Shown here one piece after another: positions 6,876-61,517 of a stretch of 64,000 bases of DNA. The stretch lies in assembly GCF_009905375.1 (NCBI RefSeq), contig NC_133650.1, positions 142,615,296 through 142,679,295 on the forward strand. The letters run 5' to 3'. Made by a program: the position numbers and the translations under genes. Under the pieces are notes generated by a model, which was not told the origin of the DNA, ran no database searches, and worked only from the letters and a program-made list of their open reading frames with translations. Source of the DNA: Apium graveolens. Taxonomy: Eukaryota; Streptophyta; Magnoliopsida; Apiales; Apiaceae. How positions within the stretch are numbered: the stretch's first letter is position 1; every line of letters starts with the position of its first letter.

Positions 6876-7829
6876 TGTAGAAGAGGGGGGTTGAATAAAA
6901 ATTATGCTTTTCAACTTTTTTAACTTGAAAAAATTCTAAGTAAGAATAAGAACACAAGACATCAAAATTTCAAGTGGTCTGTTTTTGACTTGCCACCTGA
7001 GTTATATATTGAAGAAATAATCTATGTAAATTACAAGAATTTCATAACTGCATTTTACAGTGTTTTTCTAAGAGATAGTGCTCTCGATTAAGCTCTGTTA
7101 AAAACCCTTGTTCTTATTTCTTAGATATTACACTGCTACTACTTGGTTTATATATCACCAAGTTACAAATTTTGCTAAATAATACATATCACAGTCTTCG
7201 AGGTTAGGTAATGTAAGATTGATTATTCATTCTCTTTCCCATGAGCCATGACAAATTAGGTTAGATTTTATCTTGATATGTTGCTTCGAATATCCCTCCA
7301 ATTTGTCATGCATGGAAATGAAATATTTCTTCTTCTTCACTATCCAAGATCACATGCTCGTTTTGTCTTGGCTCCCATTTTTTAAACTGAGATCTTCTAC
7401 CAACCCATATACTCTGTCATATTTGGTATATGTGCTCTATTAGGTCACTGTCAATTGCTATTTGCTACACTAGCCATTGACAGTGTACATTCCTTAGCCA
7501 TTGATGAGCTGATTCTATAACCATTGAAAGTATTCTTCTTTAGCCATTAATTGTCTCACTTCATTTAAACAGAATTACATGGCATCGAATATTTACAATT
7601 CACCACCTTATTCTATTTATTCATTGAGTTGGAGATGACTATGGAAAGAATAGTTATAATTTTGACTATCATATGAGATCTATGAAAAATGTTATGCATT
7701 CTTATTACAGATAAGTTACTCCACTAATGGCTATTGAACTACAGCTTAGCCATTGGTAGCTACGCCTACTTAATAAAATATTGTGCCATATGTTTTATTC
7801 ATCATCAAATATGCACATGATTCCTAACA
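6876..7829 (-). repeat. LTR of an unassigned copia-like element
   Basis: On the minus strand it starts TGTTAGGAATC at 7829 and ends CCTCTTCTACA at 6876, so it has TG...CA termini. It holds a TATA-like box (GATATATAAACC, near 7145-7156). Upstream on the minus strand, 7830-7842 (AATTGGAAGATAT) could serve as a purine-rich tract, suggesting a 3' LTR. No matching second LTR is in the window; the LTR-like DNA at 9470-10152 is different. Confidence 0.55.
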
Positions 7830-44876: not shown

Positions 44877-46968
44877 ATGTCTGACACAAAAACTCCAACT
44901 AAGCCTACCAAAACTGATGAACCTCCAAAGACACAAATCCAAAGTCGGTATGAAACCATCAGAGTTCCCATACTGAGACCATCTGAATATACCATATGGA
45001 AGGTGAGGATGACCATGTTTCTGGAAGCTACAGATCTAGAATATCTTGATAGAATCAAGGAAGGGCCTCACAAACCAACCAAGCTCGCAGTTGCAGTTGC
45101 ATGTGAGGCAGCAAAGACTGTACCAAAGGAAAAGAGTGATTATACAGCGGAAGATATCGCATCAATTGCTAAGGATGCTAAGGTACGACACTTACTGCAT
45201 AGTGCCATTAATAATGTAATGTCAAACAGGGTAATTAACTGCAAGACTGCTAAGGAGATATGGGATGCTCTGGAAACAAGGTGTCAGGGAACTGATACAA
45301 TTAAGAAGAACATGAAGACAATACTCACTCAAGAGTATGAACACTTTGACTCAAAGGCTAATGAATCATTGACTGATTTATATGATAGATTTGTCAAACT
45401 CTTGAATGATCTGTCACTGGTTAATAAGGAGTATGATCTTGAAGATTCAAACCTTAAATTCCTGTTAGCTCTTCCTGAATGGTGGGATTTGAAGGCAACA
45501 ACAATAAGAGACAATTACAATCTTGACGAAACAACTCTTGATGAAATTTATGGAATGCTCAAGACTCATAAACTTGAGATGGAACAAAGAAGCAAGAGGA
45601 AAGGAGGAAAGTCAAGGACAGTTGCTCTTAAGGCTGAAGAAGAATCCCCCAAGACAGCTACCTCAAGGAAAGACAAGGGTAAAGCTCTGTTCACAAAGTC
45701 TAAAACTGAGTCATCAAGTTCTGAAAGTGATGATGACTCAGATTCTGAAAGCTTGCCTGAGACTGATGCTGATGAGGAGATGATGAAGCTGTGTGCTCTT
45801 ATGGTGAAAGGGATCACAAAGATTGCATACAGGAAGTTCAGGAAGGAAAATAAGTTTTCCAGGAAAGGCATAAGTTCTGATAAGAAGAATTTCAGAAGCT
45901 CTGAAGGCAGAGGAGGAAATTCTGATAGAGGAGATTATACCAATGTCAAATGCTATAACTGTGGTGAGAAACGCCACATATCTCCTGATTTCAAGAAGGT
46001 AAAGGGTGACAAAGGCAAGGCTCTTGTCATAAAGTAGAAAAGCTAGACAGACACCTCAGACTCTGAAAGTGAGGAGAACTATGCGTTGATGGCAAATGCT
46101 GATAAAGAAAGTGTTGAGAGCAGTTCTGAAGCTGCTGAAACAAAGGTACCTCAGACTACTTATGCTTTTCATACTGATGATATTAATGAGTTGAGAAGAT
46201 ATCTTAAAACCATGTTTGTTAGTTATAGAAATCAAACTTTAACATGTGAAAGATTAACTTCTGAAAATCTTGCTTTTAAGAAAAGAAATGATTTCTTAGA
46301 AAAAGAGTTAGTTATGTTCTATCAAACTCAGAAGGATAGAGATGATGCTTTTTATGTTAGGGATGAAGTGCTAAAAATGAATGAATCTCTAAAAACTGAG
46401 TTAGAAAAGGAAAGAGAGATAATCAGGACTTGGACTAACTCTGGCAGAACAACTCAAAATTTGCTAAGTAGTGAAAATTGGAAAGAGGACTTAGGTTATG
46501 GAGAGGATAAGAATGATAAAGGAACTGTAGAAATTAAGCATGTTGTTAAGCAAAAGCCAAAGTTAAAACCTGTTAAGTTTGTAACTGTAAAGTCTGATAA
46601 TGATAAATCAGAAGTTAGAGAGGGATTAACTTCTGACAAACTAAAACAGGAAAAGACAGCTGAAGTAAACATAGACTTAATGACTAAGAAGCAGCTTAAG
46701 CATAAGCTGAAAGATGTTAAGAATGTAAACAAGGTAAAATCACCTAGGAAAAATAGGAATGAAAAGGAAGGTGTGAATAAAAGTAATGATTATAAACCTG
46801 TTCCTGATGCTCCTAGGAAAACATGTCATAACTGTGGGTGTTCTAACCATCTGGCTTCTTTTTGCAGGAAGAATAAGAACATTAACTCCTTACCTTCAAA
46901 ATCAGGAGTTAAGAGTCAGTCTGTTAGATATAAACCACATAATTCTTGTTTTCATTGTGGTAGTTTAT
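44877..46968 (+). pseudogene. gag: Copy E gag, cut by GypsyI insertion
   Basis: It starts at ATG 44877 (MSDTKTPTKPTKTDEPPK). It is open for 386 codons to a TAG (46035-46037), with the gag core, acidic linker and a knuckle with changed residues (CYNCGEKRHISPDF). It continues in another frame at 46086-46968 with the coiled region, the knuckle CHNCGCSNHLASFC and the start of the third knuckle (CFHCGSL), where the GypsyI LTR begins at 46969. It is of the B/E subfamily (shared wording PPKTQIQSRYETIRV). Confidence 0.85.
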
Positions 46969-49900
46969 TGTTACGACCGGCATTTTATGTAATATTATTT
47001 GTGGATTGGGTATAATATTAAAGTCAAATGAAAATATATTCAATGATTGTACGCTAATGTGAGTGAAAATTTCTGCATTATAAATTTGCTTTGTGTAGTA
47101 TATGATTTTTCAAAGCAAGAGTTTATTTAATTTCTTTATTTTTGATTTATAAGGAATATTCTAAGCTTTGGAAAAAATTTCTTTTAAAAGGTATTTTGTT
47201 CACAAATTTTGAAAATGATTTTATAAAGTCTCTAAAAATCCAAGTTATTTTATGGTATAAATTTTATAATTTCTGACCTTGTATTTTATTTTATAAAAAT
47301 AAATCATTATAAATTTTAGTTGTCATATTTATCAAATTACATAAGAGACCATACATGCAAATCACCCATCTATTCTCTCAAAGGGCAAACAATACTTTTC
47401 CAACTCCACTAACTCATTTGATTATTACCAAATTACTACCTTAGCCTTGCATGCAAAATGGCCTAACTTTAACCAAGGGACATTTTTGTAAGTTCTCACT
47501 TCCACTCATTATTTGTAAACCAAATAGCATAAAATAAAGAAATCAAATTGGGAGAAGTCATTCCACTCATTCCACACTCCAACACACCACAAATTTCTCT
47601 CCTTTTCCCCCTCCCACCTTGCTCTCGGCCGAAGGCCAAAATCCCCCACCCCCTTCCATTTTTCAATTCATTATTCATCTTCCCAAGTGTAAATCTTCTA
47701 CCTACATTCATCTTATATACTTTCCAAGTGTTTTGTGACTTGGAAGTTGAAGTTCCATGGATGCATGTGTAGTTCTTATGTGATCTCCAAAGATAAACTC
47801 TTGATTCTTGTGAATTCAAGAGCTCTCTATGAGATATATTATGTATATGTGCTAACTAAGTGTTTTATGGAGATATCATGCTTTAAAATCCTTTGCATGC
47901 TACTGAAATTTCATTATATATTTATGTTTAGCCATGCATGCTAGTTTTAAGACATTAAAATGATGATCAACCATGTTTTGCATGCTACTCTTTTCGAAAT
48001 CATGTAGTTATGTTTAAAACTCTATAAATTCGAAATATGTGTGTTTAAAATAGATTGTTTCCATGATAAATTTCTTATTAATACTTAAAAGAAGTTATAT
48101 TTCATGATTATTAAGGATGAGTATTAGGTGCAAGTCAATTTTGCAAGCATTTAAAACTTTATGCCTAGCTGAAATCTTGTTATGTGCTTTCCATGAGTTG
48201 CATGTTATATATTTGGTTGCATGTTGTTGTTTTTGAGCATGGATGATCTCACCCAAGTTTATTTTGAGAATAAGGGAGTTATTTCAGTAGATCACCATGT
48301 ATAAGTCTTGGTTTAAGTATTGAGTTTTTGTTAGTTGAGTTTGTCAAGTCAAAACCTTGGAAAATGAGAGTTATAGTTTCTGCAGAAAAATCAGTATAGC
48401 ACCCTGAGGTTTAGAGTGAGTTTTGACCATGTCATTGGTGTGCACTTTGAGGCCCAAACTACCAGAAGTTAGTATTGGGAGTATATAAAAGGTTTTAGGA
48501 GTTGGTTGGAGGTTTGCATGTCATTTGGTTAGGTGCACAAGTAGAATCACAAAATCTGTCCAGCAGGGGACAGTTTTGTTGCAACTTAGAAATAGGGAGA
48601 TTTGACCATGTCATGGGTAGGCCCTCATTAGGCCCAATTGGGCCTTAGTTAGAGGGTATGTCAGAGAAGTCTTTCCAACCATAGTTCATAGGATATGAGT
48701 TAGAACCATGTGTCACAAGTTAATTCAAGTCAGGGCATTTTCTGCCCAGAAAAAAACAGGGGAACCTTGGACTTTTAGCTTAGGCCCAAGAAGGCCCAAG
48801 CCAGGCCCTTGAGCCACATCAAGTTTGTGAGATGCCCTTAGGTCAGTAGAGTCTTGTGTAAAAGTTTTGAAGGAAAACTTATAGTTTAAGAGTGTCTAAT
48901 GTACTCAAGAAACCATAGTTGTCATTCTGAAATTTGCACCAGTGAGCACTATCACTTATCACATAGTTTTAGAACACTTAGAAGTGAGTATTAGGTCGAC
49001 CACCATAGTTGTAAGATAGTATAAGGTCAGTAGAGCAAAAGGCACAAGTGAGGGTCAATAGGTTTTGGATAATTTAGGAAAGGCACATCGAGTTAGGAAG
49101 CTAAAATATGAAGACCTTGTCTAGTTTAGCGACCAAGTGACTTAAGTTGTGAGTCGAGATCATCCAAGCCTAGTGTTGCATTATGGTATATATGGTGTTA
49201 TTTGGTGTTAATATATGATATGTGAATATATGGCTATGTGTGTGCAATTGTAATTTAAAAGTGAATATAAATTAAGTGCATATAGGCCTAAGTGCCATCC
49301 GTATTTAATTTCGGGTTGTAAATAGGTTAAGTTGGTGAGAATATATTATAATGAGGATTATTATTAATTATGTAGGATCTCGAGACGAGGGAAAACTTGC
49401 CATAAAAGTCGAGTGAAGCTCCAGTTTTTGCTCCTACCAGTCAGACCAGACCAGCCTATCTCAAGGCAAGTGATTCAACTTGACCTTCGTATTTACTATA
49501 AACAGTTCATATATATATCGATGCAATCATCCTGAGTCATTTTGATATGTTTAAATCAAGCGTATCTCTCACTTATCTTTGAATTATATAGAAATGCCAA
49601 GAACCCTCGAGTATGTATTGTAAGTAGTTCAAAAGTCTTTCATGATAGTTTAATGCCATGATAAAATAAAGAGTTGATATATTACTTGATTGATCCTCTT
49701 GATTACCATGTTGATGTTTCCTATGTATTGATATCTCATCCTGATACTTGAATCCCTATAGAACCTTAATTTAAACCCTGCAAGTCAGAAACTTATCAAC
49801 ATGAACCCTCAACGATTGATACCCCTCTTTCTTATCCTAAAGCTTGTCAATTCTGATATATCCTGAGCTAAAAATCATTCTTCATACCTTAACACCCTTA

Positions 49901-50844
49901 GTATTCATAAAGCTTACATTCTTGATGATCCAGCACTTGAACCTTGATGAGAAACCATTGCTTTAAGCCTAATTTGGCACTTCCTTTCATGATATCCAAT
50001 AGCCTCACTAAATTCCCTTGTCCAAACTTTGATACATGAAAACCATTCAGTTACCCTAATAGAGTTTAGTTTTTTGAATCATGGCTCTGAGATTTAGTAC
50101 CATATTTCCCTTGTTTCGAGTTGATCTATAATCCCTTAATAAAAATATTTACTGTTAAAAGAGATTTTGTTACAATTCGGCATCAGCTTTTGAAATAAAT
50201 AAAATGTGGGTTTTCAGTCCCAAAGGGGGATAAATGTTTTCTTGAATAGTGGATCTGGACTGAGACGCGAGTCCTTTCCACACTTATATTAGGCTTAAAA
50301 GTTTCCTAGGGATTCCCGTTAATGTTTTAGAACCCAGCGAGGTTCGGGATTACTTCGCGGCTGATCACCGGCTGTAATCCGTAGCGTCATAAAATGATTT
50401 TGATTAAGACATGATTTTTAAAATTGTTTTGATACGAGGAAAATGATGCCATCTCACATAGTTTTTATCTCTCGTTATCATTAGTTATGTCTTTCCATTG
50501 ACATTCTTAAAAGTATATCTCAATTTATGTTTTGTGTCGTACTGTTAGCACTTGTTGAGCATTTGGCTCACTTCTTGCTTTACCCTGATATTACAGCTAG
50601 CAGCTATGGTTAGATTCAAGCAGACTGCCCGTAAGACCTGTGATGCTGATGCTTATGTTCGAGCTCAGGTAGAATATGTAATAATAGTTGTGTGAGGACT
50701 CGGTATTTGTAATCTGATGTAATAGTTGGTAGTGTTGGGCTGTTCCAAACCCTAAATTGTATGATCTTGGATTTGGTTGTGTATTCTTCATTAAAATGAT
50801 GTAATAGCTATATTTATTTTGCTGTTTAAGTTGGGGGTGTGACA
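46969..50844 (+). repeat. 5' LTR of GypsyI
   Basis: Termini are TGTTACGACC and GGGGGTGTGACA, 3,876 bp. It includes the motif TTGCTCTCGGC (near 47620), also found in the GypsyII LTR, and near its 3' end the first exon of ORF0 (50606-50668). ORFs elsewhere in it are short and unconvincing. Confidence 0.85.
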
Positions 50845-51338
50845 GGTTTTGGTATCAGAGCTACGGTTTAGAGTCCCTGGACAGCCCAAATAGGTTATAG
50901 GATTTGTGTGTAGGTTATAGATATTATGTGAGAGAGTAGGTTAAGTAAATTATTATTAATACTCCTCTTATTTATTTTCAGCAAAGGGCGCATTCCTCGT
51001 CATCCTCTGGGTCGGACGACACTATTGCTTTCTCCGTGTATGCTGAGTTGAGGCGCGAGTTCGACATGCTTCAGGGCAAGTACGACCGACTGATAGACCG
51101 ACTGAAGAACGTGTATCCGGACAGCCGAAACTACGAAGGGAAGCCCAAGGAGCAGATGACTGCGAGACTTGAGACCTTGGTTCAGTACGTCAACACTAAG
51201 CTTGAGGAGATGCCAGCACACCGGGACCGTACCAGCCAGTATGTCATTCAGATGGTGGCGGATGAGCTCCAGAGCATTGTGAAGACGCTTCGAGAGGAAA
51301 AGACTACCAAGCCCCGTTCAGATGGAGTAGAGCCTTAG
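50606..51338 (+). CDS. GypsyI ORF0: predicted spliced accessory gene with exon 1 in the LTR
   Basis: Exon 1 (50606-50668, 21 codons) starts with ATG inside the LTR and ends CTCAG|GTAGAA. Exon 2 (50982-51338) follows TTTATTTTCAG and stays in phase to TAG. The 313-bp intron contains the LTR end and primer-binding site. The product is about 139 aa: MVRFKQTARKT (H3-tail-like), a Ser-rich stretch, then a charged helical region (LRREFDMLQGKYDRLIDRL, LREEKTTKPRS). Exon 2 has GC-rich codons and no stops, unlike its surroundings, which supports selection. GypsyII shows the same layout. No known domain is recognised; splicing is inferred from sequence only. The alternative is an unspliced ORF starting at the ATG at 51066. 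Confidence 0.6.
50850..50861 (+). other. Primer-binding site of GypsyI
   Basis: TGGTATCAGAGC, 5 nt after the LTR, initiator tRNA-Met type. It lies inside the predicted ORF0 intron. Confidence 0.9.
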
Positions 51339-51649
51339 TTCTTTCCATTTACCTTTCATGTTGTTGTACTATCAGACTCTATGGAATCCCCAGTTGTTTC
51401 CGTTTTTCCTTTAAATAAGCCTGTTATTCCTAGAATCAGACTATGTCCCAATCCTATGTACTGTGACCTTTAAAATTTCAATAATTATGTGCTATTATTC
51501 CATTTGCTCTCAACTGTTATTTTATGTTTTTATCATCATATCTGCTTAATTTGGAAACTTGACCCCATATGAAAATGAGAATGCCATGCGATACCCTCGA
51601 ATCATTTTATCATTCATATCTGTTTTGACACAACTCTTATTTCAGGATC
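51339..51649 (+). other. Intron-like spacer between ORF0 and gag, with 3' splice site
   Basis: No ORF of note. It is T-rich and ends CTCTTATTTCAG (AG at 51644-51645) only four bases before the gag ATG at 51650, a good 3' splice site that could bring gag close to a spliced LTR leader. Confidence 0.5.
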
Positions 51650-53518
51650 ATGCCTCCCAAAAAGAAGAACCCAACAACCACCTTCACCACAGACCCAAAT
51701 ATTCTTCGACTACTGGAAACCTTGCAACAGCAAACCAATGCTATAGCTCAACAACAACTAACTCTTCAACAACGAATTGAAAACCAAGATAACCGTGAGC
51801 CACACCAACCACCTGAACCACCAGTACCACCTAGACAAATTGTCACTTTCAAGGCTTTTCAGAATGTGAATCCACCTATATTTCATGATACTACTGATCC
51901 AGTGATAGCTAACACATGGATCAAGGAGATGGAAAGGGCTTTTGAGTTGGTACAGTTAGGAGACGATCAGAAGACGCCATATGCTACTTACTTCTTGAAA
52001 GGAGAAATTATCTATTGGTGGGAATCAGTAAAGGCTATGGAAGTCACTCAACAGGTTTCTTGGGAGAGATTTAAGAAGTTATTTCTGGACAAGTATTACC
52101 CTAAGTACATGCAGAATCGGATGGAGCTAAAATTTCTGGAGTTGAAGCAAGGGAACATGACTGTATTGGAGTATGAGAAGAAGTTCACTGAGTTGTCAAG
52201 GTTTGTGACAAAGTATACCAGCACTGAGGAGGAAAAAGCAAAGAAATTTCAGCAAGGATTGGAGCCTTGGATCAGAGATAGGGTGGCTATGTTTGAGCTT
52301 GAAACTTATGCGGGAGTAGTACAGAAAGCTGCTCTGATTGAGAATAATGGGATGCAGTCAAGGAAAGAGAGGGATAACAAGAAGAGGAAGGTTCCATTTT
52401 ATGGAGAAAAGTCTGAAGCTGGAAGTTCGCAAGATCGGAATATAAAGAGGATTGGTTTCCAGAAGGGCAGAAATTTTCAAAAGAAGGGAAATTTGGGCAA
52501 AAGGCAAGAATCAAAAGGGAACAACCAGGCAAGCCAAGGGCAAGTTGGAGAAAACAGGTTCCAGAGACTGGAATGCAAGCACTGTGGAAGAAGGCACCCC
52601 GGAGTATGCAATAAGTTGAGCATGACCTGTTATAGGTGCAATAAGAAGGGACATTTGGCGAATGAGTGCAAGATGGCGAAGCCAGCAGTTACGTGCTACA
52701 AGTGTGGGAAGACTGGACACATGGCTAGGGAGTGTAAGGCAACAGGACCAGCCAAAGCTCTGATGAACGTGGCAAGTACCAGTGCAAGCGTGCCAGCTGA
52801 GGTATTGGCATTACCTCCACCACCCGCACCAACCCCGCAAGCAACAGCAAGGATATTTGATCTAAAGATGAAGGATGCTGTTCAGAATTCTGAGGTGATA
52901 GCAGGTACACTTTTACTCAATAATATCAAAGCTAAAGTATTGATTAATTCAGGAGCAACAAGATCTTTCATATCAGAATCTTTTGTTGATAAGTATCAAT
53001 GTGATAAAATGGTTATAAGTGAGGTAGTAAATGTGGTAATTGCGAACCAAGAGAAGATTCCTGTGAATCAATTTTGTCCAAAGTGTGAGATCGATATTTC
53101 GGGGTATAAGTTCTCAGCCGACTTGATACTCTTCAAGTTGGGAGAGTTTGATATAATTTTAGGAATGGATTGGTTACGAGAGAATAGCGCTCAGATAAAT
53201 TGTAAGACCAAGAGAGTGTATTTAAAGACGAAGAGTGGAGAGAAGGTAGTATTTAAGGGGCAGAGGCAAGAGCAACTATTTCTTACAATCGTTCAGGCTA
53301 AGAAGTTGCTTAGAAAAGGTTGTGAGTCGTTCCTGGCATATATAGTGGATTCAGAGAGAGGCAGCCTCAGCATGGAAGATATTCCTGTAGTTAACGAGTT
53401 CCCCGATGTGTTTCCCGACGAACTACCAGGCTTACCACCAGATCGACAAATTGAGTTTGAGATCAACCTTGCTCCAGGCACGGAACCAGTTTCAAAGGCC
53501 CCATATAGGATGGCATAA
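51650..53518 (+). pseudogene. gag-pol: GypsyI gag-protease, fused to copia at its end
   Basis: The 622-codon frame has an N-terminal Gln/Pro-rich region, a retrotransposon gag domain (residues about 85-235, with WW and the FKKLFLDKYYPKYM block), and knuckles CKHCGRRHPGVC (partial), CYRCNKKGHLANEC and CYKCGKTGHMAREC. The aspartic protease has INSGATRSFIS, with the catalytic Asp replaced by Asn (codon AAT, 52946-52948), and the flap-side LGMDWL. Then comes the linker to RT ([18 protein letters not shown]). The frame ends three bases into copia sequence. The gag frame is intact, which suggests recent insertion, but the protease would be inactive. Confidence 0.85.
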
Positions 53519-54883
53519 TTACAAGGAATAAGGCAAGGCTGGTTGCAAAAGGATATTTTCAACATGAGGGAATTGATTATGATGAAACATTTGCACCAGT
53601 TGCTAGGTTAGAAGCCATAAGGATATTTTTTGGCTTATGCTGCTCACAAAAAGTTTACTGTCTTTCAAATAGATGTGAAAAGTGCTTTTCTCAATGGAGA
53701 ATTAGAGGAGGAAGTATATGTTGAACAACCTCCAGGCTTTGTAGATTCCAAACATCCAGATTATGTATACAGGCTTGATAAAGCACTTTATGGACTTAAG
53801 CAAGCTCCTAGAGGATGGTATGAGACTTTAGCTCAGTTTCTTCTGGAAAGTGGATTCAATAGAGGAATAATAGACAAAACATTGTTCTACCTCAACCATG
53901 GAAAGGACTTACTTCTGGTCCAGATTTATGTTGATGATATCATTTTTGGGTCTACAAATGACAGACTTTGCAAGAAGTTTGCCAAACTGATGCAGTCAAG
54001 GTATCAGATGAGTATGATGGGGGAACTTAGCTATTTTCTGGGCCTTGAAGTCAAGCAGAATGAAGAAGGCACTTTTATTTGTCAAAGTAAGTACACCAGA
54101 AACTTGCTGAAGAAATTTGGAATGCAAGATTGTTCAAGTGCATCCACTCCCATGGCCACTGCAACAAAACTGGATAAGGATACTGGTAAATCAGTAGGTG
54201 TTACTGATTACAGAGGTATGATTGGCTCTCTACTCTATCTAACTGCTAGTAGACCTGATATCATGTATGCTACCTGTCTTTGTGCAAGATTTCAAGCAGA
54301 TCCAAGAGAACCTCACTTAACAGCTGTGAAAAGAATTTTCAAGTATCTTAAAGGAACATCTGATCTGGGATTGTGGTATCCTAGAGAATCAGATTTTAAA
54401 CTAATAGGTTACTCAGATGCAGATTTTGCAGGTTGCAAAATTGACAGGAAAAGCACAAGTGGAAGCTGCCAATTTCTTGGAGGCAGATTAGTTTCTTGGT
54501 TCAGCAAGAAACAAAAGTCAATTTCCACATCAACTGCAGAAGCAGAGTATATTGCTGCAGGAAGCTGTTGTGCACAGATTCTTTGGATGAAAAATCAGTT
54601 ATTGGATTATGGGTTAACATATTTCAAAATCCCTATTTACTGTGATAATCAAAGTGCTATTGCTATGACAGGTAATCCAGTTCAACACTCTATGACAAAG
54701 CACATCAGCATCAGGTATCACTTCATCAGGGAACATGTGGATGAAGGTACAGTGGAATTGCACTTTGTTCCAACAGATCAACAACTAGCAGATATCTTCA
54801 CAAAACCATTGTGTGAAGCCACTTTTACAAGATTGGTAAATGAACTTGGAATGGTTTCAGGCTCTTTCTCTAAATATGCTTAG
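53516..54883 (+). pseudogene. pol: Copy E RT and RNase H, resumed after the deletion
   Basis: It resumes at [14 protein letters not shown], with a one-base insertion near 53626-53631, then an open frame (53630-54883, 417 codons): [34 protein letters not shown] (53927-53938), [11 protein letters not shown], then RNase H with [18 protein letters not shown] and CDNQSAIAM carrying the D, E, D residues, and the terminal [14 protein letters not shown]. It is the best-preserved copia RT/RNase H in the window. The protease-integrase part of E is missing (deleted with GypsyI's 3' half). Confidence 0.85.
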
Positions 54884-56253: not shown

Positions 56254-58379
56254 TGTAATAACCCCAATTTTTGGAAAATTTTGAAACCCTTATGAATAGT
56301 GTTTTTGCTGAATGAGAAAACTTTTCATGCCACACTATGTAGGGGTTCTGTTATGGATATTCTGAGATTTTATTAGTACTCTATATGGTATATAAGTGTA
56401 TGTAAAGATCGTCAGAATCCAATTCCGAACACTTTGATTTTTCCCGGAAATCCACTAGATACGAAAAGAATTGAGTATAAGGTAACAAGATAAGAAGGAT
56501 TTAAATTAAAGGATTATAAGAGAGGATCATAAAAGGAATATAATATATTGAGAAAAGTTAAGGGAACCTAAGTAATAAGATCCCGGGTATGATCCCTCAA
56601 ACGATAAACGAAAACGAAAGTTAAGCGAACCGTATAACAGATCAGCGGTCATCAGCAAACAATTAGGAAGTTAATCAAAGAGATTAGAGGGGATGATGTC
56701 ATCCAACCAATGGGAAGAGGACAAAGAGGGAAGGATGACACCACATGATGACATAAGCATGACATAGGAGGGAAGGAGGTGTGGTTGGCTATTAACCACA
56801 CAATTTGCAAGGTTAATAAAGTAATTAACCAAAATCTAAACAAAAACAACCAACCAAAAGCAAAACACAAAAATCATTTCATCTTCTTCAAGCCTTTGCT
56901 CTCGGCTTTTCTTGTTTTCAAAGAGAAGAATTTCAAAGATCCAAGCTTCCTAAATTGGTGAGTTAATTCTCTAGTCTTCCTTATGCATAGTTATGGCTAC
57001 CTTATGAGTTTAAGCCTCTAATTCTTTCTCAATCTTCTTCATTAAATGAATGAAGAAGACAATGAATAGTGTTTTCAAGTTTTTAACTTGAAATTTTTCT
57101 TGTTTTCCTTTAAGATCCAAGCATCCCTAAGACTTTTCAAAGCTTCTTAAGGCTTCCTAGCTACTCCCACCACTTCAAGGAAGGTATATCATCTCCAAAC
57201 CCTAGATTCCTATGTTTAATAAGATGATTTTGATTATTATGGTGATATTGTAGCTTAATGTTTGTGGTTTAGAGTTTGGGTTGAAGTGGTATTGAAATGG
57301 AATGGTAAATCTTGTTGTTTTGGTTAAAAGAATGTAGTATAGTTAAATTCAAGCTTAGGCAATAGAGTGAATGTTAAAATTGAGTTTATTTGGGGCCGTT
57401 GTAATGTAATTTAGATGGAGGTTGATTGGGTTGTGAATTGGAGTTGAAATTGTGGTTGTTTGAATTGGTTTAAATTTGGGAAATCGCGTAAACATAGCCG
57501 TCGTAACGTCCGATTTTCTTTAGACTGTTTTTGTGCATAACATTAAGACCCGAGAACCCCCTGCTAGATTATGACCATTGCCATGTCTAGATAGCTCGTG
57601 TTACGAGCTTCGTTTTGATATGTAGTTCGTTCGATTCCGATGCACGGTTTAGGAGAAACGACCGTTTCAAGTAACGGCGTTTTCCGAACGAACCCTTACC
57701 CCTCGCCTTACTTTGAAGCATCGGTTAAGACCTTAAAGGGTTAATTAATGTATGAAACAATTATTTTAAGTGTGTTAGGCAGTTGGTAAGACACTCGCGA
57801 AGGAATCGCCTTAAAACTCGTAATGGTTAATTTATTAAAAATGGTGGAGCCGAGGGTACTCGAGTGACTTAAGAGAATCAGTAAGCGCAAAACGAGCGTC
57901 AGAGTCTAAGTTGGTTAGAGTATAGATTTACAAGTGACTTTGGTTTAATTCCAACTTACTTGTTGTTTATAGGTTACCAGACTCGTCCCGAGCTATTCGT
58001 AACCTCAAGTCGCTCAAGCAAGTTTTCTACCCGTTATACTGTTGTTGTTATGTATATATGTATATGCATTATCTTGTGATAGATGCATGTTGGTTAATTA
58101 GCAAATTTTGCGATATATTGAAGCATGCTGATATGGTATATATATATATGCATGCCTGTTTTGTATTCTTGCCATATATATCTGTTGGTTCAGTTGATAA
58201 TACATATGCTAGAGAATAGCGGTAATTTGCATATACCCTTAGTATAGGGACCCAAAGGTGAAAACATTCTCTAAAACCGGGAGTCGAGGATCCCGAGTTG
58301 ATTTTATATATATATATATTTTTTTTTTTATATATATATGGTTATAGTTTTCAAAACTATTAATCGAATAAGGTTTATT

Positions 58380-58735
58380 CGATAACTTTAACTTTATTTT
58401 ATTATTGAATATTATTTCAAATATTCATCCGAGGACTTATGACTCCTTTATTTTATTATTGAATATTATTTCAAATATTCATTCGAGGGCTTATGACTTC
58501 TTTATTTTATTAAATGAATATTATTTTGAATATTCATTCGAGGACTTATGACTCCTTTTATTTTATTATTTGAATATTATTTGAATATTCATTCGAGGGC
58601 TTATGACTCCTTTATATTATTTATTGAATATTATTTGAATATTCATTCGAGGGCTTATGACTCAGTTTATATTATTTAATGAATATTATTTGAATATTCA
58701 TTTGAGGATCTATGACTCCGATTATTTGCTGAGAT
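58380..58735 (+). repeat. Minisatellite of 54-55 bp, six copies, inside GypsyII LTR
   Basis: The phrase GAGG(A/G)CTTATGACT (last copy GAGGATCTATGACT) recurs at 58431, 58485, 58540, 58595, 58649 and 58704. Each unit carries GAATATTATTT(C/G)AA and its near inverse AATATTC, so each can fold into a short hairpin. Confidence 0.85.
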
Positions 58736-60089: not shown

Positions 60090-61517
60090 ATGAACATGAC
60101 TAAGCTCCCAATTCGCAGGCGGATAGGAAACATTCCGCAGTTTCCTGTAGGCGTGGATGTCGCTGTAGCCGAGGTAGGAACTACCAATAGGCTAGGTTTT
60201 CAACTTATGATGTACCATACTTATGTATAAATATGAATTGTAATAATGGCAAAGAAATGTAAATTTATTCAGAAACCTTTTTAAGGTGTATTGACATATA
60301 ATTGTGGAATAAAACGACTTGTGATTATTTTTGGATATTCATCTCTGAGACTATAACTTGTGGTGTGTGTGTTTATTGTGGGGTCACAGTACAGAGTAGT
60401 TGATTAATTATTAAGATTGGGTGTTATTAAGGGAAATGGAACTCGTGACAACCCGGATCCCCGACCCCGGATTTGGGGGTGTTACAGAAGTGGTATCAGA
60501 GCGAAGCGTTATAAACCTCAGAGATGATGTGACGTTAAGATAATAACTAAGATAATAAGAACTCTTGCCAAGTTCATAGTCGGGCTACCTAACGTAGTAT
60601 TGACAGTTAAAACCCTTACGGGAACCCTTATAAATATCGTGATAGTAACATAGTTCATTCTCGTATAGGGCAGCGGGGCACCGAACCCTGAGGTTTAGGA
60701 GCATCAGCATGAGGATGTTTTATTACAAGTTGGAGATCAAATTGTGAATCCGATGGAGTACCCTAATGAGGGACCGGATGAAATTCATATTGAGAATGTT
60801 GCGGTTGAGGATGTTATTCCGGAAAGGATTGTGGCTGAGGAGGATCTTATGGAGGATCCTGATGAGAATGAAGAGAGGACCGCTGAGGAATTGATGACCG
60901 TAGTCAGGGCGACTACCAGAGCAAGAATGGCCGCGAGGGTGGCACTAGAGGATGAAGAGTTACCAAGGGCATTAAAGTTAATGAGGGCAGAAGGAGTGGG
61001 GCCTTCCACGACCCCAATTATACCAGTATCAGACCCTCTTTCAGAGGTTCCTGTAGACATCCATGAGGTTCCACCAATTCCTGTTCCATCCCCGGTACAG
61101 AGCCCAGCACCTACTGAGGAAATGCCACATTTATCTCCTGCACCATTGTCACCTGATACCGTGTTTGGTTATCCATTTGGATCTCCTGGGTCTGCACCAC
61201 CTGCACCCCATGGACTGCTAGATGCTACCACTCAGGCTTCTCTTATCGCTGATTATCAGATGACCCTGGGTGGCCTGTCCGAGGCCCGTAATGTTAGGAG
61301 TGATCTGTTGGATCGACTTACTGCACCAAGGATTGAGGGCGGGGTACTTCCGGCAGGATTAGCTCATAGCATGGAAAGGATTGAGGCTACCACCCGTGTT
61401 ACAGCTAGAGGCCATCTTGAGGGTCAGATTGATCCAGCTCTACTTGCAACTATCTTAGACCTCATCACCTCTGTGATGGAGCAGGTTAGGGATGTCGTGC
61501 GTGCTCGCATTTCTTGA
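60090..61517 (+). pseudogene. GypsyII ORF0: predicted spliced accessory gene with exon 1 in the LTR
   Basis: Exon 1 (60090-60173, 28 codons, MNMTKLPIRRRIGNIPQF...) ends GCCGAG|GTAGGA. Exon 2 most simply begins at 60669 after CTCGTATAG and is in phase with the long frame to 61517, with one TAG (60696-60698, probably a former CAG). An alternative acceptor TTTAG|GAG at 60698 avoids that stop and is also in phase. The intron holds the LTR end and primer site. Exon 2 encodes an acidic N-terminus, an Ala/Arg-rich helix, a Pro-rich stretch (PVPSPVQSPAP) and a C-terminal helical region (ATILDLITSVMEQVRDVVRARIS). No known domain is recognised. Length and sequence differ from GypsyI ORF0; position and structure agree. 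Confidence 0.5.
60491..60502 (+). other. Primer-binding site of GypsyII
   Basis: TGGTATCAGAGC, 4 nt after the LTR, initiator tRNA-Met type, inside the predicted ORF0 intron. Confidence 0.9.

Follow-up and report, generated by a model that had tools for sequence, protein, structure and literature searches.

The SNAG domain of Snail and GFI1 resembles the histone H3 tail, its sequence departing from that of H3 beyond R2; the H3-like mimic of influenza A NS1 is shorter than the celery tail described below; and the splicing known from the retrotransposon Ogre takes place inside pol. In PMC7649360 the SNAG domain is an N-terminal peptide that engages LSD1, and the celery peptide is likewise N-terminal and in one clade (MPRFKQTARKN) also begins MPR, whereas the celery KQTARK is literally that of H3. 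NS1, in passages of PMC12937675, is a viral protein that reproduces the H3 N-terminal tail in a short segment; that segment sits at the C-terminus of a protein of an animal virus, whereas the celery copy sits at the N-terminus, in H3 register, and belongs to a plant retrotransposon. Ogre, EVADE and BARE1 share with the celery element the principle that splicing gives a second product from one element (passages of PMC12786077), yet splicing in EVADE takes out the protease region (same passages), whereas the predicted celery intron spans the end of the long terminal repeat (LTR) and the primer-binding site (PBS), and its removal would join an LTR exon to an accessory ORF. The celery element has the TG...CA LTRs, the TGGTATCAGAGC PBS, gag/protease, RNase H, integrase and C-terminal chromodomain of Tekay (Del) chromoviruses and differs from them in having, ahead of gag, a split gene with an H3-mimicking first exon in the LTR; such an extra gene goes unmentioned in the Tekay and chromovirus literature passages compared. 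No H3 mimic in a transposable element was among the matches listed by searches of open-licence literature texts, which included the literal peptides, and within those texts VRTKQTARK occurred only in an ATRX peptide study (PMC7181051).

The stretch of celery (Apium graveolens) DNA analysed here, 64,000 nucleotides in length (the window), carries a copy of this element in which a gene, ORF0, is divided between the 5' LTR and the sequence beyond the PBS (Table 1). We interpret ORF0 as a genuine spliced accessory gene whose product would mimic the H3 tail and engage proteins that read or write it, most likely weakening silencing, and we put the probability of this interpretation at roughly 0.6. 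An earlier note on this DNA had proposed the split gene with its ATG, donor, acceptor, phase and 21 + 118 codons, and every one of these coordinates agrees with the window sequence; what it overlooked is the H3 tail in exon 1. Its description of exon 2 as GC-rich and stop-free also holds, with 54% GC compared with 34% in the LTR and with 118 codons staying open by chance in ~0.3% of 20,000 simulations that used exon 2's own dinucleotides. The celery annotated protein AgCh_012955 is 99% identical across all 139 ORF0 residues.

Table 1. Features of the element and of ORF0 in the window (positions count from the first letter of the window).
Feature	Position	Strand	Details
5' LTR	46969..50844	+	3,876 bp, TGTTACGACC...GGTGTGACA, TG...CA
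Possible 3' splice site upstream of exon 1	50555..50596	+	TTGAGCATTTGGCTCACTTCTTGCTTTACCCTGATATTACAG; motif again in L071 and L080, partly in L069
ORF0 exon 1	50606..50668	+	63 nt, MVRFKQTARKTCDADAYVRAQ, inside the LTR; start codon ATG at 50606, 21 open codons, donor CAG/GTAGAA with boundary 50668/50669; length and donor GT in 24/24 distinct close copies
H3 tail-like segment VRFKQTARKT	50609..50638	+	H3 residues 1-10 are ARTKQTARKS; relatives VRTKQTARKS
ORF0 intron	50669..50981	+	313 nt, GTAGAA...TTTTCAG; acceptor TTTATTTTCAG ends at 50981; holds LTR end and PBS
PBS TGGTATCAGAGC	50850..50861	+	after the 5' LTR, absent after the 3' LTR, in three pairs
ORF0 exon 2	50982..51338	+	118 codons in the phase of exon 1, plus TAG ending at 51338
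Possible second acceptor AG before gag ATG	51644..51645	+	CTCTTATTTCAG/GATCATG
gag-protease ORF, Ty3/gypsy	51650..53518	+	Retrotrans_gag, RVP_2, CCHC knuckles; element sequence stops at 53515

Matches to close copies begin exactly at 46969, where the sequence reads TGTTACG, in 13/20 close copies (2-4 bases earlier in four, later in three), and the LTR end was fixed from three LTR pairs whose exon-1 sites lie ~9.49 kb apart within each copy. The paired LTRs are identical or one base different through exon 1 and its donor to GGTGTGACA, past which the upstream LTR runs on into GGTTTTGGTATCAGAGC and the downstream LTR into unrelated flanking DNA. These pair comparisons and match starts give the LTR and PBS boundaries of Table 1 and thus set exon 1 inside the LTR, with the intron lying across the LTR end and the PBS, just as had been proposed; the further proposal of a spliced RNA without a PBS stands as a prediction from an intron that covers it. 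The PBS is presumably of the initiator-Met tRNA type. Among 73 plus-strand exon-1 sites, which were typed from the first 100 places listed, 20 of the 72 gaps between successive sites measure 9.3-9.6 kb, as expected if many elements have exon 1 in both LTRs. There are two LTR subtypes, 47508-48241 being unmatched in 8/20 close copies with both sides matching.

The element fits a Tekay-type chromovirus, a clade placement made from general features: its TG...CA LTRs and PBS are joined by a Ty3-type gag and protease, seen in the window, and by RNase H, integrase and an integrase C-terminal chromodomain, seen in other copies. When five pieces of other copies were scanned, RNase H was found in one (L016), a Tf2-1-like SH3 domain in four, an integrase core in four (L013, L016, L022, L026) and a Chromo match in three, at E 5.2e-4 to 2.9e-3 and under Pfam's cut-off; the C-terminus of L022 (KVLWRNPKVEESTWELESDMRSRHPHL) gave six weak PDB matches, four of them to chromodomain proteins and the best at E 0.095. 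The window copy is without RNase H and integrase since the element is cut at 53515, where the match ends exactly in 16/20 close copies (earlier in four), and because Ty1/copia sequence begins at 53516 it has neither a pol nor a 3' LTR of its own. That adjoining region (53516-54883) encodes a Ty1/copia reverse transcriptase, with RVT_2 in a frame from 53621, and at its other end the window copy starts inside a frame (46047-47015) with a CCHC-like motif that by eye resembles Ty1/copia gag. The AG of the possible second acceptor ahead of gag is kept in 18 of the 19 copies whose gag ATG could be placed (20 tried), and spliced RNA may be another source of gag through this site. Joining exon 1 itself to this acceptor was considered and dropped, the product being out of frame with gag by eye.

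A chromodomain in the integrase pieces of other copies makes it conceivable that the ORF0 tail targets the element's own integrase chromodomain or particles, steering or holding back integration, and does not address host factors. Passages of PMC6317226 and PMC12786077 describe the partner of plant type II chromodomains as not yet identified, which leaves room for such a pairing, but they also describe these chromodomains as having no cage residues for methylated H3K9, and we consider an internal target of this kind improbable.

The view of ORF0 as a genuine gene draws on its conservation. The earlier note had suggested comparing splice sites and phase among other copies, and these are kept: the GT, the AG, the 63-nt exon 1 and the 357-nt exon 2 recur in 24/24 distinct close copies (a set counting the window and 28 further loci, less five duplicates; those listed share 98-99% identity with the window), and stops occur in exon 1 of 1/24 and in exon 2 of 4/24. 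For diverged copies the celery genome was searched with Heracleum exon 2, 150 places (54-68% identical) of 6,800 candidates were scored, and 40 of the 150 were taken by exon 2 alone, stop-free frames being favoured and 900 nt of upstream sequence added. An H3-like exon 1 lies upstream in 35/40, beginning 450-478 nt into the piece in 34 and at 654 in one, and relatives of ORF0 upstream of gag, which the note had proposed to seek, are found in related copies. A strict script credited 28 of those 35 with an in-frame donor, 24 with the acceptor AG and 27 with an open exon 1, but no more than 13 with the full set; the copies are old and decayed, and such losses might be expected of them. By eye, the L079 copy has no AG at the expected acceptor. 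Between exon 2 of the window and those of 36 other celery copies (the members of the 40 with at least 105 open codons), pS was 0.70-0.81 and pN 0.30-0.37; because synonymous sites are near saturation while about a third of nonsynonymous sites have changed, exon 2 has long been under purifying selection at the protein level. Among eight other copies, dN/dS was 0.14-0.61 in 28 pairs, and 0.14-0.27 in the pairs involving L031, which have the largest dS.

Annotated proteins offer a second view of the gene. Exons 1 and 2 are joined in celery P0001 and P0005 and in Heracleum P0008, P0010 and P0012, which together with the conserved splice sites and phase supports the spliced protein of ~139 residues that had been predicted from the letters of the window, and we infer that such splicing takes place in vivo. 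P0015 and P0024 instead read into exon 2 from sequence that follows the PBS, and P0002, P0009 and P0023 have their start at an ATG inside the intron. Were the RNA left unspliced, translation from exon 1 would carry on past the donor and give a short ORF (MVRFKQTARKTCDADAYVRAQVEYVIIVV), acting as a micropeptide or a gag-tuning uORF, and exon 2 would be made on its own. This short frame does end soon past the donor in the window and in diverged copies, and the three models with an intron ATG begin exon 2 as this alternative has it, but the earliest possible in-frame ATG in exon 2 of the window is codon 29, and in 28/40 diverged copies the exon-2 frame is closed by a stop no more than about four codons upstream. 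Given this late ATG and the upstream stops, exon 1 is the natural source of a start for exon 2, and we hold the unspliced alternative to be highly improbable. In some copies (L073) the intron ATG (MRESR...) heads a frame that opens into exon 2 without an H3 tail, as in P0002, P0009 and P0023; in the window the same ATG is, by eye, directly followed by TGA.

Other coding sequence is placed ahead of exon 1 in P0001, P0005, P0025 and P0026, and these upstream fusions may be gene-prediction artefacts. Exon 1 may also be an internal exon, given the possible 3' splice site ahead of it: P0005 joins ...VNV to LAAMV, as if spliced at CAG/CTAGCAGCTATGG, and P0026 reads straight through this stretch. The anatomy required for an exon trap, in which LTRs would splice exon 1 into neighbouring genes as the earlier note envisaged, is present in that the 3' LTR has exon 1 and its donor, but no instance in which a host exon receives exon 1 by splicing was found. 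A ubiquitin-conjugating-enzyme-like sequence is joined to ORF0 in P0024 and a GDSL-lipase-like sequence in P0025, and these two fusions may be artefacts or real exonisation.

Exon 1 encodes MVRFKQTARKT in the window family and MVRTKQTARKS(TGG) in other celery families and in Heracleum, where H3 has MARTKQTARKSTGG. The Heracleum proteins P0008 (from a cluster of 13), P0010 and P0012, available as proteins only, begin MVRTKQTARKSSNG and run AQ-Q-x-AHSSSS where the celery intron sits, and the celery copies L034 (MVRTKQTARKSTGRQ) and L071 (MVRTKQTARKSTGGD) compare with MARTKQTARKSTGGKAPRK in H3, so that up to 12 consecutive residues are the same as in H3. When compared with PDB sequences, the exon-1 peptide of P0008 gave 128 matches at E ≤ 10 (best E 0.0052) and that of L071 gave 134 at E ≤ 1 (best 3.4e-4), and the best 60 of the 128 and the best 60 of the 134 were all histone H3 or Cse4; the match of the relatives to the H3 tail lies beyond chance. 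The window's own 21-residue exon 1, which departs from H3 by T3F and S10T, matched nothing in PDB at E ≤ 10, and because this shorter variant had no match, the case for an H3 tail in the window comes from its relatives. Likeness to H3 ends at G12/G13. In the celery genome MVRFKQTARKT occurs at 7,751 sites, MVRTKQTARK[S/T] at 137 and the host H3 type MARTKQTARK[S/T] at 68, and reversed-pattern controls occur at 0 sites; the patterns admit Ser at Arg, as at 2 of 100 listed MVRTKQTARK[S/T] places and 4 of the 68 host-type sites. Host H3-type starts are strongly clustered, at G000:C7:180081413-180479362 and on contigs C684, C685, C1422 and C2988. In a deeper clade whose exon 2 has diverged strongly (L079, L082-L091), exon 1 reads MVRFKQTARKT, MPRFKQTARKN or MARLKQTARKT; of ten pieces of this clade taken by exon-2 position, eight have an H3-like exon 1, none being found in L088 and L090.

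The H3-like residues appear to be kept by selection. Across 53 exon-1 sequences (50 celery loci, window included, and three Heracleum sequences, which are not independent; celery loci other than the window had to match 7 of 11 residues to enter the set), the H3 residue is kept at K4 in 53, T6 in 53, K9 in 52, R2 in 49, A7 in 47, R8 in 47 and Q5 in 46. Scores among the 40 loci selected by exon 2 were either ≥7 or ≤5 of 11. Codon comparisons point the same way, with five synonymous and no nonsynonymous differences among 10 codons both between L030 and L071 and between the window and L072, and amino-acid differences among seven representatives are confined to H3 positions 3 and 10. Pairwise comparison of nine representatives gave 83% identity for the H3-like core and 31% for the remainder of exon 1, and the core scored higher in 35/36 pairs. 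Residue 1 after Met is V, P or A in 51/53, and these residues permit removal of the initiator Met; we infer that it is removed, which would place the tail in H3 numbering.

This pattern bears on two alternatives to a mimic. Exon 1 could derive from a host H3 gene by capture, possibly together with the promoter, its coding likeness being a functionless relic; over their first 32 nt, seven element exon-1 sequences agree with four host H3 genes at 19-28 positions, a likeness that argues neither way on capture, but synonymous divergence between families without amino-acid change and a core conserved above the rest of exon 1 are unexpected for a relic, and we give this account little credence. Alternatively, ORF0 is real and its basic N-terminus is a nuclear-localisation, RNA-binding or particle-assembly tail whose H3 likeness is ignored by H3-binding proteins. 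That the segment is short and basic, and that positions 3 and 10 differ among clades so that some H3 contacts are lost, would suit such a tail, yet a generic tail need not keep Q5, T6 and A7, nor sit in H3 register behind a small residue, and we regard this account as unlikely.

An AlphaFold2 model of the annotated Heracleum protein P0008 with 20 relatives has residues 1-34 disordered and helices at 40-73, 78-99, 106-128 and 141-154, at a mean pLDDT of 62.8, and suggests that in the ORF0 protein a flexible H3-like tail precedes a helical domain, which may dimerise. This alignment-based model had no Foldseek match at E ≤ 0.001, and a single-sequence structure model reached pLDDT 50. Exon 2 gave two matches to PDB sequences (best E 0.41), and Pfam returned only matches below its cut-offs for exon 2 and none for P0008 or P0012. 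Two profile searches, which covered predicted proteins sharing short words, returned 23 matches (E ≤ 0.01) and 18 matches (E ≤ 10), and the named homologues among them were from Apium or Heracleum (Apiaceae) only; transposons are masked in many annotations.

Under the mimic interpretation, the LTR-encoded exon would supply the H3 N-terminal tail at the exact N-terminus once M is removed, the mature tail reading V/P/A-R-x-K-Q-T-A-R-K-S/T/N in register with H3 residues 1-10, and splicing would couple it to the helical domain encoded downstream of the PBS. The disordered tail, with its K4 and K9 equivalents, would be offered to readers and modifiers of the H3 tail, for which it would compete with nucleosomes, and the element's own silencing, for example through H3K9 methylation or the Pol IV/RdDM loop, would most likely be weakened. 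SHH1 reads unmethylated K4 together with methylated K9 and recruits Pol IV, and we take SHH1, KYP/SUVH4, CMT3 and LDL1-type demethylases to be candidate plant targets of the tail. We think that anti-silencing by competition is the most likely role, its main rivals being the chromodomain target and the plain basic tail. More tentatively, and at somewhat less than even odds, the product may be a decoy of the H3 N-terminus that is encoded in every LTR, is itself a K9-equivalent substrate and lets a family of thousands of copies escape H3K9me and RdDM. Points against a mimic are T3F and S10T in the most numerous family, P1, F3 and N10 in the deeper clade, the weak structure model, the gene models without exon 1 and the modest share of diverged copies that are fully intact.

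Peptide measurements in passages of PMC7181051 bear on whether H3-tail proteins could accept this N-terminus. VRTKQTARK(me3)ST competed for the ATRX ADD domain with an IC50 of 4.3 uM, compared with 7.6 uM for ARTKQTARK(me3)ST (wild-type 1-11) and 86-95 uM for unmethylated H3 1-16 and 1-10, and, its methyl groups aside, the first of these is what families such as L034 are predicted to have as their mature N-terminus. Because the A1V K9me3 peptide was bound, Val at position 1 is acceptable to one H3 N-terminus reader at least, and since binding in these passages leaned on K9me3, a decoy for such a reader would itself need methylation.

Viruses, influenza among them, are known to mimic histones, and ORF0, if the interpretation is true, would be a case of a transposable element that encodes a histone mimic directed against silencing, its anti-silencing (or self-targeting) acting at the same H3 tail that the host uses against transposons. 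It would also supply a possible clue to the partner of plant type II chromodomains, a directly testable peptide and a reason for the upkeep of an odd split gene with an LTR exon, and it would make the evolution of a host mimic visible over thousands of copies. Elsewhere in the window, 58339-58719 holds a tandem array of several copies of ~55-bp units, and 60699-61517 is a 272-codon open frame.
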